This document shows, piece by piece, positions 58,117 through 64,000 of a stretch of DNA of 64,000 nucleotides. Numbering within the stretch: position 1 is the stretch's first letter; each line of letters opens with the position of its first letter. A program made the position numbers and the translations under genes. This DNA is from Janthinobacterium sp. 64 (lineage in GTDB: Bacteria; Pseudomonadota; Gammaproteobacteria; Burkholderiales; Burkholderiaceae_D). Below the pieces are notes generated by a model. The model had not been told where the DNA came from. It searched no databases and saw nothing but the letters and a program-made list of their open reading frames with translations. The DNA is taken from contig NZ_PHUG01000001.1 in NCBI RefSeq assembly GCF_002813325.1, forward strand, positions 1,178,001 through 1,242,000. The letters run 5' to 3'.

Positions 58117-58210
58117 CATTACGGGCTACCGCGCACGCTTGCGCCAGATCAAACGGCTGGGGTATCGGGCTTTTAAGATGGGCCACTTGTGCCCTCGTGA
58201 CGGCAGGCAT

Positions 58211-59581
58211 ATGACGCTCAAGGTCTGGCTGGAAATCGTGCAGCAGGCGGCGGCTGGCAGTGGCGCCTTGCTGATGACGGCCTTGAAGCAGGCTCAGGTA
58301 ACTGTGGCCCGGCGGCACGATGGCGAGGAGGGAGCGGGCATCGTGCTGTTTGCCGAGGCCGATAGCGCGCTGCTGCAAGCGCTGCCGGCCCTGTGCCGGC
58401 ACGCCTCCGTGCTGGCCATTGCCGCCTGCGGCCGCTTCCCCAGCTGCGCAGAGCAGCGCGCCCTGCTGGCGGCAGGCGCCCTCGACGTGCTGTTGTGGCC
58501 GGCCGGCAGCGTCGATGCGGCCCCGGTACTGGCGCGCCTGCAGCGCTGGCAAGCCGTGGCAGAGCTGCAGGCGTCAAACGCCGTGCGCCAGCACCTGGTG
58601 GGCGACAGCGCGGCCTGGACTTCCTTGCTGCACCAGGTGGTGGAAATGGCCGCCTTCAGCCAGGCGTCGATGCTGATCACGGGCGAGACGGGCACGGGCA
58701 AGGACTTACTGGCGCAACTGGTCCACCGCCTCGGCAACTGCAGCGGCGACTTCACCATTCTCGACTGCACTACCCTGTCGCCGGAACTGGCTGGCAGCGA
58801 ACTGTTCGGCCATGAACGGGGCGCCTTTACGGGTGCGTCCGGTGCACGCGATGGCGCTTTCGCCCTCGCCGACGGCGGCGTGCTGTTTCTCGATGAAGTG
58901 GGGGAGCTGCCGCTGCCGCTGCAGGCGCAGCTGCTGCGCGCCATCCAGGAGCGCCAATACAAGCGCGTGGGCGGCAATACCTGGCAACCAACGCAATTTC
59001 GCCTCGTCTGCGCCACCAACCGCGAACTGGAAGATGAGGTGGCGCGCGGCGCCTTTCGCGCCGACCTGTATTACCGCATCGCCGGCTGGCGTTGCCAAGC
59101 CCCGCCCCTGCGCGAGCGCCAGGACGATATCCTGCCACTGGCCCGGCATTTCCTCGCCGAACTGGCGCAGCGCCCTCCTCCCCTGCTCGATGCCGCCGTG
59201 CGCGAATACCTGCTGCTGCGCGACTATCCGGGCAATGTGCGCGAGCTGCGCCAGACCGTCACGCGCATCTGGCACCGCCATTGCGGTCCCGGGCCCATCA
59301 CCATCGGCGCCCTGCCCCCAGAGGAACGGCTGCTGGCACCGCTCTGGCCCGACCAGCATTTCGAGGCGGCCGTGCGGCGCGCCCTGGCACAGGGCTGCAA
59401 GCTGTCGCACATCACGCGCTGCGCCACCGACATGGCCATCCGCCTGGTGCTGGCCGAGGAACGCGGCAACAACCAGCGCGCCGCCGCCCGCCTGGGCGTG
59501 ACGGACCGCGCCCTGCAGATACGCCGCAAGGCTGTCGCCTGCGCGGCGCAGCTGGCGCAGCCTGATGTTGTGCCGCCATAA
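58211..59581 (+). CDS. sigma-54-dependent transcriptional activator
   Basis: 456 residues. The N-terminal 125 are a receiver-like region without a recognisable phospho-acceptor Asp. The AAA+ domain follows, with Walker A GETGTGKD, the sigma-54-contacting loop GAFTGA, Walker B GGVLFLDEVGELP and the sensor NPGNVREL-type DYPGNVREL. A Fis-like HTH lies near the C-terminus (ERGNNQRAAARLGVTDRALQIRR). The ATG at 58211 is used; earlier in-frame starts (TTG 58139, ATG 58178) cannot be excluded. Its targets are unknown. The neighbouring leftward operon or the acyltransferase are candidates. Confidence 0.88.
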   Translation: MTLKVWLEIVQQAAAGSGALLMTALKQAQVTVARRHDGEEGAGIVLFAEADSALLQALPALCRHASVLAIAACGRFPSCAEQRALLAAGALDVLLWPAGSVDAAPVLARLQRWQAVAELQASNAVRQHLVGDSAAWTSLLHQVVEMAAFSQASMLITGETGTGKDLLAQLVHRLGNCSGDFTILDCTTLSPELAGSELFGHERGAFTGASGARDGAFALADGGVLFLDEVGELPLPLQAQLLRAIQERQYKRVGGNTWQPTQFRLVCATNRELEDEVARGAFRADLYYRIAGWRCQAPPLRERQDDILPLARHFLAELAQRPPPLLDAAVREYLLLRDYPGNVRELRQTVTRIWHRHCGPGPITIGALPPEERLLAPLWPDQHFEAAVRRALAQGCKLSHITRCATDMAIRLVLAEERGNNQRAAARLGVTDRALQIRRKAVACAAQLAQPDVVPP

Positions 59582-59614: not shown

Positions 59615-60760
59615 ATGTACAGCCCAGTCTGCCACCGCCTGTCCGCCTGTTTCGACCTCTCGCGCCCCGGCGCGGCGCCGCAGCTGCGCGCCATGGAAGG
59701 CTTGCGCGGCCTGGCCGTGCTGCTGGTGTTTCTCGTCCACTATGTCAGCCTGGAAGCGCCGTGGCGCGGCAGCGCCGTCACGCCACTGGCGACGGCCCTG
59801 CACAGCATGGGCAATGCGGGGGTCGACCTGTTTTTTGTGCTCAGCGGCTATCTGATCTATGGCTCGCTGATGTCCCGCCAACAAGCGCTGCTGCCCTACC
59901 TGCGCCGCCGCGTGCGCCGCATCTATCCCGTCTACAGCTGTGTCTTCGTCCTGTACCTGCTGCTGTCGCTGGCCCTGCCGTCGGAAAGCAAGATACCGGC
60001 GGCATGGCCGCAGGCGGTCGCTTACCTGGCCAGCAATTTTCTGTTGCTCAGCGGCTTCATGGCGGCGCCACCGTTCATCAGCGTGGCCTGGTCGCTCAGC
60101 TACGAAATGCTGTACTACCTGCTGATCCCCCTGCTCATCGTCGTCTTCGATTTGCGCCGGCGCAGCCGCAGCTGGCGCGGCGGCTTTTTCGCCGTGCTCA
60201 CCATACTGGCGGGCGGCCTCTTCGCCATCTTCGGCGGCCCCGCCCGTTTGCTGCTGTTTATCGCCGGCATCCTTGTCCATGAAGCGCTGGCGGCGCCTGC
60301 CTGCCGCGCACCGCCACCCGCACTGGCCGCCTGCGCCGTGCCGTGCGCGCTGGGCTGTTTGTTGCTGCCGCTGGCACTGCTGCTGAAACTGGCGCTGCTG
60401 GCCTGTGCCTTTTTCCTGCTCTGCCTGTGCTGCTTCCAGGCGCGCCCCCACTGGCTGGCGCGCCTGTTTTGCTGGACGCCCTTGCGCTAGCTGGGCAATA
60501 TCAGCTATTCCTACTATCTGATCCACGGCTTGGCACTGAAGGGCGCCTTCCTGGTGCTGGCGCTGTTTCATCCGCCGCAAGCGCAGGGCCTGGCCTTCTT
60601 TTTACTGTTGATGCCGCTCATGCTGGCCTTCAGCCTGCCACCGGCAATAACACTGTTCCTGCTCGTCGAGCGGCCGCTGTCATTGCCGCCATCGCAGGCG
60701 TGCGCGCCTGCGGTGTCTAGCCCTGCCTTGCCAGCCGCAGGAAATTTTCCCCCAGGATGA
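59615..60760 (+). pseudogene. acyltransferase-3 family membrane protein interrupted by an in-frame TAG
   Basis: Reading through TAG at 60488-60490 gives about 381 residues with the acyltransferase-3 signature from start to end: LRAMEGLRGLAVLLVFLVHY (catalytic His), GVDLFFVLSGYLIYG, LRRRVRRIYPVY. After the stop come LGNISYSYYLIHGLAL and VERPLSL. The stop falls in PLR-stop-LGNISYS, where family members usually have an aromatic residue; TGG to TAG would explain it. No frameshift is seen. These enzymes acylate surface sugars or lipids. The 3' end overlaps the converging amidohydrolase gene by 44 bases. Confidence 0.85.
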
Positions 60761-61445
60761 GCGCGGCATCGGCTGGCGGCAAGCCCAGCAAATGAATCTT
60801 GTGCAATTCCAGCCCAGGATGCAGCCACGGGCCGTCCGAGCCGAACAGGACCTTGTGCGGCCCCGCGCGGCGCACGGCCTGCTGCAGCAAGTCGAAGCGG
60901 CGCACGCCCGAGCTGTCCGTATGGATATTCGGATGGCGCACAAGGTGGTCGATCAGCGCCAGCTGCGCCGCCCAGTCGTCGCCGAAGCTGCCCAGGTGCG
61001 GCAGGATAAAGTTAACGTCCGGATACTGCTGCGCCAGCAATTCGGCCACGGCCACCTCGCCGGCCGGGTCGTACAGCACGGGCAAGCCGAAGAAGCGCGC
61101 CGCGTCGCACAGCTCGCCGCTGATGCGCGCATCAAACCGGTGCGCCTTGATGCCGACAAAGCCGTAACGCTCGACGGCAGTGCGCACCAGGTCCATGATG
61201 CGGCCCCGGTCGCGCCGCGCATGCACGAAGGCAAAGCCGTAAAAACGCTGCGGATCGGCAGCGACCAGGCGCGCCACGCCATGGTTGGCGATGGCGTAGT
61301 CGGAGTGGAAGGCGGCGAACAGCACGCTGCGGGCGATGCCGGCCGCCTGCGCGCGGCGCAGGTAGGCCTGCAGCGGCGCATCGCTGTCCCACGGCCCGCT
61401 CAAGCCGTCGCCCGGACCCGCATGGCAGTGGCAATCGATGATCAT
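60717..61445 (-). CDS. TIM-barrel amidohydrolase (amidohydrolase-2 family)
   Basis: 242 residues, short for the family (280-330). The metal-binding start is intact (MIIDCHCHAGPGDG, HxH), followed by GIKAHRFDARIS, LPHLGSFGDDW and the late Asp in LFGSDGPWLHPG. It would cleave C-N or C-C bonds in a small acid or amide; decarboxylases of this fold are also possible. It is last in the four-gene leftward operon, nine bases after the upstream stop. No clear SD is seen, so it probably depends on coupling. Confidence 0.82.
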   Translation of the reverse strand: MIIDCHCHAGPGDGLSGPWDSDAPLQAYLRRAQAAGIARSVLFAAFHSDYAIANHGVARLVAADPQRFYGFAFVHARRDRGRIMDLVRTAVERYGFVGIKAHRFDARISGELCDAARFFGLPVLYDPAGEVAVAELLAQQYPDVNFILPHLGSFGDDWAAQLALIDHLVRHPNIHTDSSGVRRFDLLQQAVRRAGPHKVLFGSDGPWLHPGLELHKIHLLGLPPADAALILGENFLRLARQG

Positions 61446-61454
61446 CGTGCCACG

Positions 61455-62105
61455 CTATTGCCAGTCGCCCATGACGACGATGCGGTTGCCGCGCCGGCGC
61501 CAGCGTCCGCTTTCCTCTTCCTGCTGCGGCGCAGGCGAGCGGAAGTGCGGCAATTGCTGGTGCAGGGCCCGCGTCAGCGCGCTTTCGACGGCGCGCGCGC
61601 TGCCATCGCCGCCAGCCGCCAGGCGCGCCGCCTGCCCCGCGATGCGCACGAAGCGACGCGCCAGTTCCAGTTCGCGGTCGGCCGGCGCCTCGCTCTCCAT
61701 TTCGAGCTCCAGCGCATTGCTGGCCGCGCGCCCCAGGGCCGAGCCGAGCGCCGTGCCCACGCCAGGTATCGGGATCATCGAACCGAGCGCGCCGCCGACA
61801 AAGGGCAAGGCCGTCTTGGCCACGGCCTTCAAAGCGCCGCCCAGGGGTTTGGCTACCTTGGCAATGCTCGACCCCACCTTCTTGACGCCCTTCCACACGC
61901 TCTTGAAGACATTGCCGAGAAACTGCTCCAGTTCTTCCTCGCTGGCCACTTCCAGCAATTCCATGGCCAGCTGCAATTCTTCCTCTTCGCCGAAGATGGC
62001 CGGCGCCGTACCCTTGCCGGGCCAGTCGTGGCCGAATTCCAGCACTTCAAACGCAGCGCCGGCCCGCTGCCGGCATTGCGCGCATGCGCATTCGAGTTGG
62101 TGCAT
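61455..62105 (-). CDS. acidic protein with glycine-rich hydrophobic core, unknown function
   Basis: 216 residues. The N-terminus has a Cys cluster (C6, C8, C11) and the motif AFEVLEF at 18-24, then a Glu-rich stretch (38-62). Residues 63-128 alternate lysine-bearing amphipathic and Gly/Ala/Ile segments (KSVWKGVKKVGSSIAKVAK, then LPFVGGALGSMIPIPGVGTALG), resembling a glycine-zipper or pore-forming segment. The tail is Arg-rich (SGRWRRRGNRIVV). There is no signal peptide. AGGAG stands six bases before the ATG. The AFE-x-L-x-F motif recurs in the neighbour at 62123-62971. I do not recognise the family with confidence. Confidence 0.8.
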   Translation of the reverse strand: MHQLECACAQCRQRAGAAFEVLEFGHDWPGKGTAPAIFGEEEELQLAMELLEVASEEELEQFLGNVFKSVWKGVKKVGSSIAKVAKPLGGALKAVAKTALPFVGGALGSMIPIPGVGTALGSALGRAASNALELEMESEAPADRELELARRFVRIAGQAARLAAGGDGSARAVESALTRALHQQLPHFRSPAPQQEEESGRWRRRGNRIVVMGDWQ

Positions 62106-62122
62106 GATGTTCTCCTTCGCAG

Positions 62123-62971
62123 TCAGCCCCACATTTCACCGAGCACGGCCATTTCCAGTTCGCGCCGCTGGTTGGTCAACACGCCGCGCTGGTGGGCAAA
62201 CATGTCGTCGTGGATGCGCTGCTCGATGCGGCGCCGCTGCGCCGCCGAGGACAGGGGCGCCACGTACACCTGGTGCCCGCTCAAGTCGACGCCCATCATC
62301 TGGCCGCACAGGCGGTGCTGCAGCAAACGCCGGTGCAGGTCGTCTGTCTGGCCGCTGTAGGCGCGGCGCCGTCCGCCCGCATCGAATTCGATCACATACA
62401 GGCCCGCCCCCCGACCATTCGGGTCGCGCAAGGCATTGGCGAGCGTGCCCAGCGCCAGGTAATTCAGGGCGGCCGCTTCCGGCACCCGGCCCATCGTACC
62501 GGCCAGGGTCGGCGGGATTTCACCCTGCATCTGGCCATCGTCCTGCCCCTGCTCTGGCCCCTGGTCCTGGTCCGCATCCGGCTCCTGCTGGTCGCCAAAA
62601 ACCGGTTCCGCCACGGGATAGGGCGCCGGATAAATCGTGGGATAGATGGCCGGGTAGCCGCCCCAGCCCCGGTAGCGCGGCGGCAAATAGGGCAAGGGCT
62701 GGATAGCATGGCGGGGTGGCCGGCGGCCCTGCCCCTGGTAGCGCGGCGGCGCTGGACGGCGCTGTCCGCGCAACGGCGGCCGTGCGCGCAGCCCACCACC
62801 GCGCATGCCGCCGCGAGCGCTACCGGGACGCGGACGCTCGCCCTCCCATTCGGCCTCGTCCTCCCCTTGCCACTCCTGCGACCACTCCTGCGACCATTCC
62901 CCCAGCCACTCCTGCTCGCCAGCCGCTCCCGCCTGCCCCGCAAAGGGCAGCATTTCAAATGCTTCGTGCAT
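62123..62971 (-). CDS. GIY-YIG-like protein with Glu/Trp-rich N-terminal tail
   Basis: 282 residues. Residues 4-10 are AFEMLPF. Residues 20-45 repeat EW-x-x units in a strongly acidic tract (EWLGEWSQEWSQEW). 46-150 is low complexity, first basic and Pro/Arg-rich, then Asp/Gln-rich. The last 95 residues look like a GIY-YIG nuclease fold: GLY at 190-192, YSG at 205-207, Arg 214/215 and E250 in the expected order. AGGAGG stands five bases before the ATG. The upstream PLP gene ends 17 bases inside this one, so translation is coupled. Nuclease activity is inferred, and the substrate is unknown. Confidence 0.78.
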   Translation of the reverse strand: MHEAFEMLPFAGQAGAAGEQEWLGEWSQEWSQEWQGEDEAEWEGERPRPGSARGGMRGGGLRARPPLRGQRRPAPPRYQGQGRRPPRHAIQPLPYLPPRYRGWGGYPAIYPTIYPAPYPVAEPVFGDQQEPDADQDQGPEQGQDDGQMQGEIPPTLAGTMGRVPEAAALNYLALGTLANALRDPNGRGAGLYVIEFDAGGRRRAYSGQTDDLHRRLLQHRLCGQMMGVDLSGHQVYVAPLSSAAQRRRIEQRIHDDMFAHQRGVLTNQRRELEMAVLGEMWG

Positions 62972-63983
62972 ATCGCCTCCTGATGTGATGTTCAAGCAAG
63001 TCCATCGCCTGCTCCAGTTGCCCGGGCGTCTGGTCGGCCCGCAGCAGAAAAGTCAGCGCGCCGGGGCCATCGCCCGCTTGCGCCAGCGCGAGCACGCCCG
63101 CTGCGCGCAAGGCTGGCTGCAAATGGGCGCACCCTGGCAGGCGCTGCACGGGGAAGCTGCCGCCCCGGCAAGCGATGCCGGCCGCCGCCATCGCGCTGCG
63201 CCACTGCGCCACCCTGTCCGCCAGCCTGGTGCGCAGGGCGTCGCCATGCTGCGCATTGAGCGCCAGCGCGCGCCGCGCCGCCGCCAGCACGGCGGCCGAA
63301 GGGGGACTGGCATGCACGCGCGTCTGGCTGTGCGCTTCGAAGCGCCGCAGCAGCGCGCCGCTGCCGGCCAGCACGGCCAGCGGCACGCCGAATCCCTTGG
63401 CCAGCGAGGCGCCGATGATCAGCGACTCCCCATGCAAGCCATGCAGCCGCGCCGAACCGCCGCCCTGTGTACCCATCACGCCCAGCACCTGCGTGTCGTC
63501 CAGCAGCAGATAACCGCCGCCCTGGCGCGCCAGAGCCGCATAGCTGGCCAGCGGCAAGACCTGCTCGCTGCCCGGCACATAGCCATCGGCCAGTATCAAC
63601 GGACGCCGCCCCTGCCTGCGCCAGGCCGCCACCAGGCGCCGCAGCACCGCCATCTCGCCGCTGGGAAACACTTGCTGGGGCAAGCCCAGCGCCTGCGCCC
63701 GCTCGGCGCCCCAGCGCGCGATGGCGTAACTGCCGCCATCGATGAGGATCACCAGGCGCTCGGCCGCCAGCATGCCGAACAGGTCCCAGAACAAATGCAG
63801 GGTCGACGGCAGCACGCAGGCCGCTTCGCAGCCTTGCAGCGCGGCCAGGCTTGCTGCCAGGGCCTGCGCGCCGGGCGGCTCCTGCAGCGCCGCCGGCTGG
63901 CCCAGGGTCAAGCTGCTCCACGGCGCCAGCGCGGCCGCCGGATGGCGCATGCCCAGGTACAGGGCACTGGTAAAGTCGAGCAT
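62955..63983 (-). CDS. PLP-dependent aminotransferase of the AONS/KBL type
   Basis: 342 residues, shorter than 8-amino-7-oxononanoate synthase (about 384) or glycine C-acetyltransferase. The PLP lysine is K196 in GASLAKGFGV, and the cofactor Asp pair is D162-D163. The His of the family DDAHG motif is replaced by Gln (DDTQVLG), so the reaction may differ. The ATG at 63983 lies 17 bases from the window end and has GGGAG upstream; the operon may continue beyond the edge. It heads the visible part of the leftward operon. Confidence 0.8.
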   Translation of the reverse strand: MLDFTSALYLGMRHPAAALAPWSSLTLGQPAALQEPPGAQALAASLAALQGCEAACVLPSTLHLFWDLFGMLAAERLVILIDGGSYAIARWGAERAQALGLPQQVFPSGEMAVLRRLVAAWRRQGRRPLILADGYVPGSEQVLPLASYAALARQGGGYLLLDDTQVLGVMGTQGGGSARLHGLHGESLIIGASLAKGFGVPLAVLAGSGALLRRFEAHSQTRVHASPPSAAVLAAARRALALNAQHGDALRTRLADRVAQWRSAMAAAGIACRGGSFPVQRLPGCAHLQPALRAAGVLALAQAGDGPGALTFLLRADQTPGQLEQAMDLLEHHIRRRYARSI

Positions 63984-64000
63984 GCACGCGCCCCGCTCCC

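Follow-up and report, generated by a model that had tools for sequence, protein, structure and literature searches.

Four leftward genes lie at the right-hand end of a 64,000-nucleotide stretch of the Janthinobacterium sp. 64 genome (the window, G000:C1:1178001-1242000; genome of 6.3 Mb in two contigs). They encode a pyridoxal 5'-phosphate (PLP) enzyme, a GIY-YIG-like protein, a glycine-zipper protein and an amidohydrolase, a combination that raises the question of what such proteins could do together. A first reading of the sequence alone (the original prediction) had described a four-gene operon with a possible conflict, toxin-delivery or peptide-tailoring role. We show here that these genes form the promoter-distal half of a larger operon. 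This operon is a real, widespread and essentially uncharacterised system of scattered soil and water bacteria, for which we found no name and whose function we infer below.

All four open reading frames (ORFs) were present and coupled as predicted, with a 17-nt overlap between the PLP and GIY-YIG genes, a 17-nt gap between the GIY-YIG and glycine-zipper genes, and a 9-nt gap between the glycine-zipper and amidohydrolase genes. Ratios of nonsynonymous to synonymous polymorphism (pN/pS) were 0.13-0.31 against the Janthinobacterium locus L012 and 0.22-0.57 against L020; all four ORFs are under purifying selection and behave as coding genes. Clear Shine-Dalgarno sequences were seen at two genes, GIY-YIG (AGGAGG) and glycine-rich (AAGGAG), where three had been counted; that of the PLP gene is weak and none is clear for the amidohydrolase. 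The acidic tail ascribed to the GIY-YIG protein is an N-terminal stretch. The guess that the operon might cross the right window edge was borne out, as extension of the contig carried it about 5 kb past base 64000 through four further genes on the same strand, preceding the PLP gene (Table 1). The predicted four-gene unit consists of real genes but is not the whole core, and the best conserved genes, those for the HExxH and 724 proteins, lie outside the window. The order of the unit is glycine-zipper proteins, HExxH protein, 724 protein, PLP enzyme, variable slot, glycine-zipper protein and amidohydrolase, followed by a convergent sigma-54 activator.

Table 1. The operon and its neighbours. 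Plain positions are those of the window; L005 is G000:C1:1234001-1254000, and an L005 position plus 56000 gives the window-equivalent position.
Feature	Position	Strand	Remarks
Sigma-54 activator (enhancer-binding protein)	58139..59581	+	Pfam Sigma54_activat E=1.5e-55; converges on operon end
Acyltransferase_3 family gene, 291 aa	59615-60490		Pfam E=3.1e-23
Amidohydrolase, Amidohydro_2 family, 242 aa	60717..61445	-	Pfam E=7.9e-19
Glycine-zipper protein, third paralogue, 216 aa	61455..62105	-	Likely ATG at 62105
Cargo slot, GIY-YIG-like protein, 282 aa	62123..62971	-	Likely ATG at 62971
8-Amino-7-oxononanoate synthase (AONS)-like PLP enzyme, 342 aa	62955..63983	-	NCBIfam bioF E=1.4e-18, far under cut-off
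724-aa protein	L005:8004-10178	-	Beyond window
HExxH protein, 451 aa, VHEVGHQ, metallopeptidase-like	L005:10189-11544	-	Beyond window
Glycine-zipper paralogue, 244 aa	L005:11549-12283	-	Beyond window
Degenerate further zipper paralogue	L005:12359-12982 as listed; true start probably downstream	-	Beyond window
Sigma-54-type site TGGCATGGCCCTTGCG	about L005:12971-12986		Upstream of first gene

Conservation of the unit was assessed by scanning genomes with the 244-aa zipper protein, which gave 54 loci. Their carriers include Janthinobacterium, Rugamonas, Pseudoduganella, Massilia, Variovorax, Rhizobacter, Ideonella, Polaromonas and Accumulibacter; Cellvibrio, Thiocapsa and Chromatiaceae; Bradyrhizobium, Rhizobium, Methylocapsa and Microvirga; and Nitrospira. 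Five plasmid records, four of them read, add Ensifer, Rhizobium and Paraburkholderia. Profiles built from these loci were run on 76 loci, of which 66 passed a 250-bit HExxH cut, including the distant L062. Rows for L014, L015, L016 and L028 were dropped as these loci stop before HExxH, and L033 and L039 lost HExxH to the overlap filter though it is present. Denominators are the loci with enough flanking sequence (for the activator, at least 8.5 kb downstream). The 724 gene adjoins the HExxH gene at 60 of 62 loci; the misses are L048 and L062, the former mis-scored, with its 724 gene visible in a separate map. The PLP enzyme was found at 56/59 loci (undetected in L061, L062 and L077), the amidohydrolase at 50/55 and the convergent activator, downstream on the opposite strand, at 49/55. 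A zipper protein lies downstream at 40/55 loci and at least one lies upstream at 59/61, with one to four per locus and three in most family genomes. These counts are not independent, since 15 of the 66 rows are Janthinobacterium.

The HExxH gene occurs in 24 of 195 family genomes (5 of 44 genera) and 7 of 399 genomes of the order, both at E<=1e-20, and in 6 of 398 genomes of the phylum at E<=1e-10, a sporadic distribution. The zipper profile (E<=1e-8) found the same 24 family genomes and no others in the set. G072, of the same genus as the window genome, lacks both genes, and all three zipper copies of the window's own genome sit in this operon. According to the original prediction, a system would gain support if the families were found together, in a conserved manner, in unrelated genomes, and such co-occurrence was found: synteny spans Alpha-, Beta- and Gammaproteobacteria plus Nitrospira, and within the family, where the test rests on the HExxH and zipper profiles, the two distributions are identical. 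Pairwise distances of the HExxH, 724 and zipper proteins also correlate (r 0.64-0.68 over 78-120 pairs).

Searches that scored about 8000 candidates each returned 5325 relatives of the HExxH protein, 3143 of the 724 protein and 2549 of the zipper protein; for the 120 relatives listed per family, names were absent, 'hypothetical' or domain-style labels. Some 724-protein relatives (including P0282, P0284, P0301 and P0339) are named '8-amino-7-oxononanoate synthase' in public records and others 'carboxypeptidase-like regulatory domain-containing'. The 724 protein has no NCBIfam match, and the BioF name may have been carried over from the gene next to it. Among the papers listed for this gene combination in open-access PubMed Central, preprints excluded, none describes the system as far as title or abstract start shows.

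None of the HExxH, 724 and zipper families matched Pfam or NCBIfam above cut-off. PADLOC gave no family at E<=0.01 for any of the eight operon proteins, and no match to a known anti-phage defence model. The HExxH protein has H194, E195, H198, E237 and D241 in every one of 17 sequences, that of L062 among them; a fold search with its poor model gave no match at E<=0.001, and a sequence search of solved structures gave none for this protein and one chain for the 724 protein at E=0.57. The N-terminus of the 724 protein is Cna-B/pilin-like (Foldseek 4iyk, E=1.1e-6; CnaB2 domain 8bdw_H, TM-score on target 0.69), in agreement with a precomputed PF13620 label on 2 of the 120 listed relatives that points to a beta-sandwich N-terminus; its second half holds dozens of invariant residues and is predicted, at low confidence, to be helical. 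Zipper proteins have an acidic N-terminus and glycines at 104, 108, 112, 116, 120, 128 and 132, each kept in 80% or more of 14 sequences; G230, W232, R234, G236 and G243 of their C-terminal tail are invariant. The 216-aa copy has a CxCxxC and FE-containing N-terminus and a GRWxRxGxxIV tail, and is 46% identical to the 244-aa copy over query residues 14-187. Zipper-protein ends can exist without the core, as a 67-residue protein at L024:16577-16822 has the CxCxxC start and a GRWxRRG tail with no zipper core between them.

Five distant loci (L062, L073, L074, L097 and L098), which we term type II, have a diverged HExxH gene (127-438 bits) and different neighbours; L075-L077 and L096 are diverged type I loci. 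Near the HExxH gene of all type II loci except L062 are genes for very acidic or CxCxxC-type proteins, and L073 encodes an aspartate-rich protein that continues into a stretch both cationic and glycine-zipper-like (Gly-zipper_Omp E=0.016, below cut-off). With an hhalign probability of 0.45%, homology between the 724 protein and a 350-390-residue protein of type II loci was unsupported.

The PLP enzyme exceeds the Pfam Aminotran_1_2 cut-off and resembles BioF and its relatives over most of its length, with the PLP lysine and two aspartates kept; K196 and D162-D163-T164-Q165 are at least 90% conserved among 26 rows. The BioF motif is of DDAH type, and the window enzyme reads DDTQ, with Gln for His. 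It differs from BioF in scoring 66.8 bits against the NCBIfam bioF cut-off of 426.45, below cut-off as for all 12 NCBIfam models touched, and in that the true BioF of the genome is encoded elsewhere, at G000:C1:3685943. The amidohydrolase scores above the Pfam Amidohydro_2 cut-off (68.9 bits against 26.4), and H6, H8, K100, H102, H150 and D204, which are presumably the metal-binding residues, are at least 90% conserved among 22 rows. Its match is broken into pieces in L013:16823-17540 and L045:13267-13968 and is only partial in L017. At L018:16065-17511 (Janthinobacterium sp. PC23-8), a papain-family peptidase and a small protein replace the last zipper gene and the amidohydrolase, and at the type II locus L062:16714-18952 (Paraburkholderia PGU19) a gene judged by eye to be M20-peptidase-like adjoins an amidohydrolase of the window family.

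The upstream sigma-54-type site and the convergent activator make sigma-54 control of the operon likely, and the activator is the likely regulator. In 26 of 38 loci the best sigma-54-like site ahead of the operon had a score that no more than 1 in 100 base shuffles of its region could equal; the other 12 gave p 0.02-0.03 (L010, L038 and L056) or p 0.1-0.92 (L012, L013, L018, L025, L026, L027, L031, L051 and L061). Some matches may be chance, because gene starts are uncertain and the distance from site to first Met ranges from -381 to +27. In the window the Acyltransferase_3 family gene is interposed between activator and operon, unlike many other loci, in which the activator faces the amidohydrolase directly.

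The variable part of the unit lies between the PLP gene and the amidohydrolase, where content changes from species to species. The window slot protein has an N-terminal FEMLPF and an acidic, tryptophan-rich stretch, followed by a C-terminal GIY-YIG-like domain that scores E=0.15 and 12.8 bits on Pfam GIY-YIG, under the cut-off of 22.6; relatives at L034 and L044 reach 22.3 and 18.9 bits. The positions that we take to be the GIY, YIG, R, E and N of the motif were matched by eye. Twenty-two slot proteins, picked by hand from different loci, were scanned for domains, of which some carry two. PG_binding_1 was found in eight, Amidase_2 in three, DUF2272 with Glucosaminidase in two and OmpA in three; one each was a papain-family, a trypsin-like and an M20 peptidase, and five had no family over cut-off. 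The Amidase_2 slot proteins of L031 and L044 also match the profile of the window GIY-YIG protein. In L031, L047, L048 and L050, relatives of the L035 M20 gene are likewise located towards the end of the unit. By eye, most of the 22 open with acidic-aromatic stretches. In further loci, FE-type dipeptides (at least four in the first 80 residues) were present in 3/6 slot and 6/13 zipper ORFs and in 0/88 flanking ORFs; the acidic FE-rich N-terminus is a tendency, not a proven signal.

The slot proteins include wall hydrolases, proteases and one nuclease-like enzyme, and many share a similar N-terminus; placed beside conserved zipper proteins, they look like effectors. We favour, tentatively and at somewhat less than an even chance, the interpretation that this sigma-54-switched operon makes and deploys effector proteins. 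In such a scheme the zipper proteins would enter membranes and open a passage for cargo, much like the glycine zipper in the effector Tde1, and the acidic N-termini would keep zipper proteins and cargo inactive or mark both as clients. The HExxH protein could cut both at activation, and the 724 protein could serve as scaffold or receptor. A small molecule or protein modification on which deployment depends might be made or trimmed by the PLP enzyme and the amidohydrolase, and cargo would be exported. The conflict or toxin-delivery role first suggested fits the cargo types of other loci and may hold; nothing specific was found for peptide tailoring.

Several observations weigh against effector deployment. 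No immunity gene was seen between cargo and the next core gene in locus maps that cover genes above 60-90 aa, and no export machine was identified for the operon. L021 and L022 have only about 250-270 bp between their PLP and zipper matches, and enzyme cargo is therefore not essential; the PLP enzyme, for its part, was undetected in 3/59 loci. Slot proteins of papain, trypsin and M20 type do not, by eye, begin with an FE-rich stretch. An N-terminal [FI]x3P[FLY] motif was present in 21/47 slot ORFs vs 4/343 flanking ORFs and 3.5% of shuffles, a count made in the same loci from which the motif was derived, and in only 6/82 zipper ORFs. Under a slightly different rule it was found in 1/9 slot vs 4/88 flanking ORFs of 10 further loci, or 2 in 18.1 kb of slot vs 4 in 64.2 kb of flank; FxxxPF was dropped as a sorting motif after this failure to replicate. 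Both structure models were poor as well (mean predicted local distance difference test, pLDDT, 58.6 and 60.3).

Known export machines were compared with the distribution of the operon. TssB/VipA, a sheath marker of the type VI secretion system (T6SS), was present in 24/24 family carriers vs 72/171 non-carriers (p 8e-9, ignoring kinship), which suggested dependence on this system. It was found in 5/19 carriers outside the 24, some of them draft or metagenome assemblies, and T6SS dependence was dropped because the other 14 lack the marker, including the single-contig, 100%-complete G439. Dependence on an extracellular contractile injection system (eCIS) was likewise rejected, Pvc16_N being present in only 6/20 carriers and absent from the window's own genome. 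Markers of both were missing from 10 of the 19 further carriers, and neither looks like the general export route. A phage origin was also rejected: a tblastn search of 50,697 phage records with the HExxH protein found nothing, and none of 27 stretches from an IMG/VR pattern scan was related to it.

The lack of a visible immunity gene is the weak point of effector deployment, so self-directed lysis stays the main rival. Here holin-like zipper proteins, wall hydrolases, proteases and a nuclease would act under sigma-54, and a fraction of cells would lyse and release their contents. Cargo could act on the producer's own wall, maps of genes above 60-90 aa show no immunity gene beside it, and no dedicated export system was found, the T6SS marker being absent from 14/19 and the eCIS marker from 14/20 carriers. 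We nevertheless consider lysis unlikely, as the mapped Janthinobacterium loci hold a GIY-YIG-like gene and no recognised wall hydrolase in the slot, simple lysis would have no use for the PLP enzyme or the amidohydrolase, and the slot varies strongly where lysis genes need not.

The Cna-B/pilin-like domain of the 724 protein raises another possibility, namely that zipper and FE-rich segments form fibres or condensates, at the surface or inside the cell, that display enzymes on a 724 scaffold and remodel envelope or matrix. Peptidoglycan-binding and OmpA domains among the cargo and the alternating F/E stretches would suit such an assembly, but no signal peptide or anchoring motif was seen by eye, with no dedicated tool applied, and protease and nuclease-like cargo would be unusual for a scaffold; we regard it as quite unlikely. 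Least probable is a small-molecule or peptide-modifying pathway, with a signal or antibiotic as the product of the PLP enzyme and the amidohydrolase and with the zipper proteins as precursor peptides for cleavage by the HExxH protein. In its favour are the wide retention of the PLP enzyme, the conserved PLP lysine and metal-site residues, and the acidic leader, defined core and conserved tail of the zipper proteins. Against it, the PLP enzyme was undetected in some loci, the cargo includes full-size lytic enzymes, and the unit has no other gene recognisable as biosynthetic or as encoding a transporter.

A more specific form of effector deployment is doubtful but deserves statement. The operon would represent an undescribed class in which zipper proteins that insert into membranes, set free or armed by their own HExxH peptidase and organised by the 724 protein, carry interchangeable FE-tagged enzymes to the outside or into targets without Sec, T6SS or contractile machinery, with a chemical step supplied by the PLP enzyme and amidohydrolase. 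A fixed core of uncharacterised proteins with interchangeable cell-wall-, protein- and DNA-cutting-type enzymes may be a new way of deploying enzymes. If so, Gram-negative bacteria would have a new way to release lytic enzymes, and the loci would supply new antibacterial cargo. With its cargo slot and likely sigma-54 control, effector deployment lends itself to direct tests in harmless strains.

Three known systems invite comparison. In holin/endolysin-type (type X) secretion, a small membrane-active protein and a wall hydrolase could export protein without Sec. By eye, the window zipper proteins are unlike typical multi-pass holins; a wall hydrolase was not recognised at many loci, and the other core genes are unexplained by this route. 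Polymorphic toxins, as described in the main text of Zhang et al. 2012 (PMC3482391), combine a common N-terminal region with varied catalytic C-terminal domains, including peptidases and nucleases. The present unit may resemble them in its varied cargo, often behind a loosely similar N-terminus, and, for the PVC-type systems, resembles them in having a metallopeptidase-like protein. It differs in that no adjacent immunity gene was seen in maps of genes above 60-90 aa and in its separate HExxH gene without a Pfam match; no trafficking domain (PVC peptidase, WXG, TPS, PrsW etc.) matched the HExxH, 724 or zipper proteins above the Pfam or NCBIfam cut-offs. That main text contains no occurrence of 'GIY-YIG', 'oxoamine' or 'amidohydrolase', and a full-text count gives one GIY-YIG. 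For the T6SS effector Tde1, it is proposed (PMC10240207) that consecutive GxxxG repeats permeabilise membranes for passage of the enzyme, an experimental precedent for zipper-mediated permeabilisation. Tde1, as described there, carries its zipper within the effector itself and travels through the T6SS, whereas here 14/19 further carriers lack the T6SS sheath protein and the zipper proteins are the products of separate genes.

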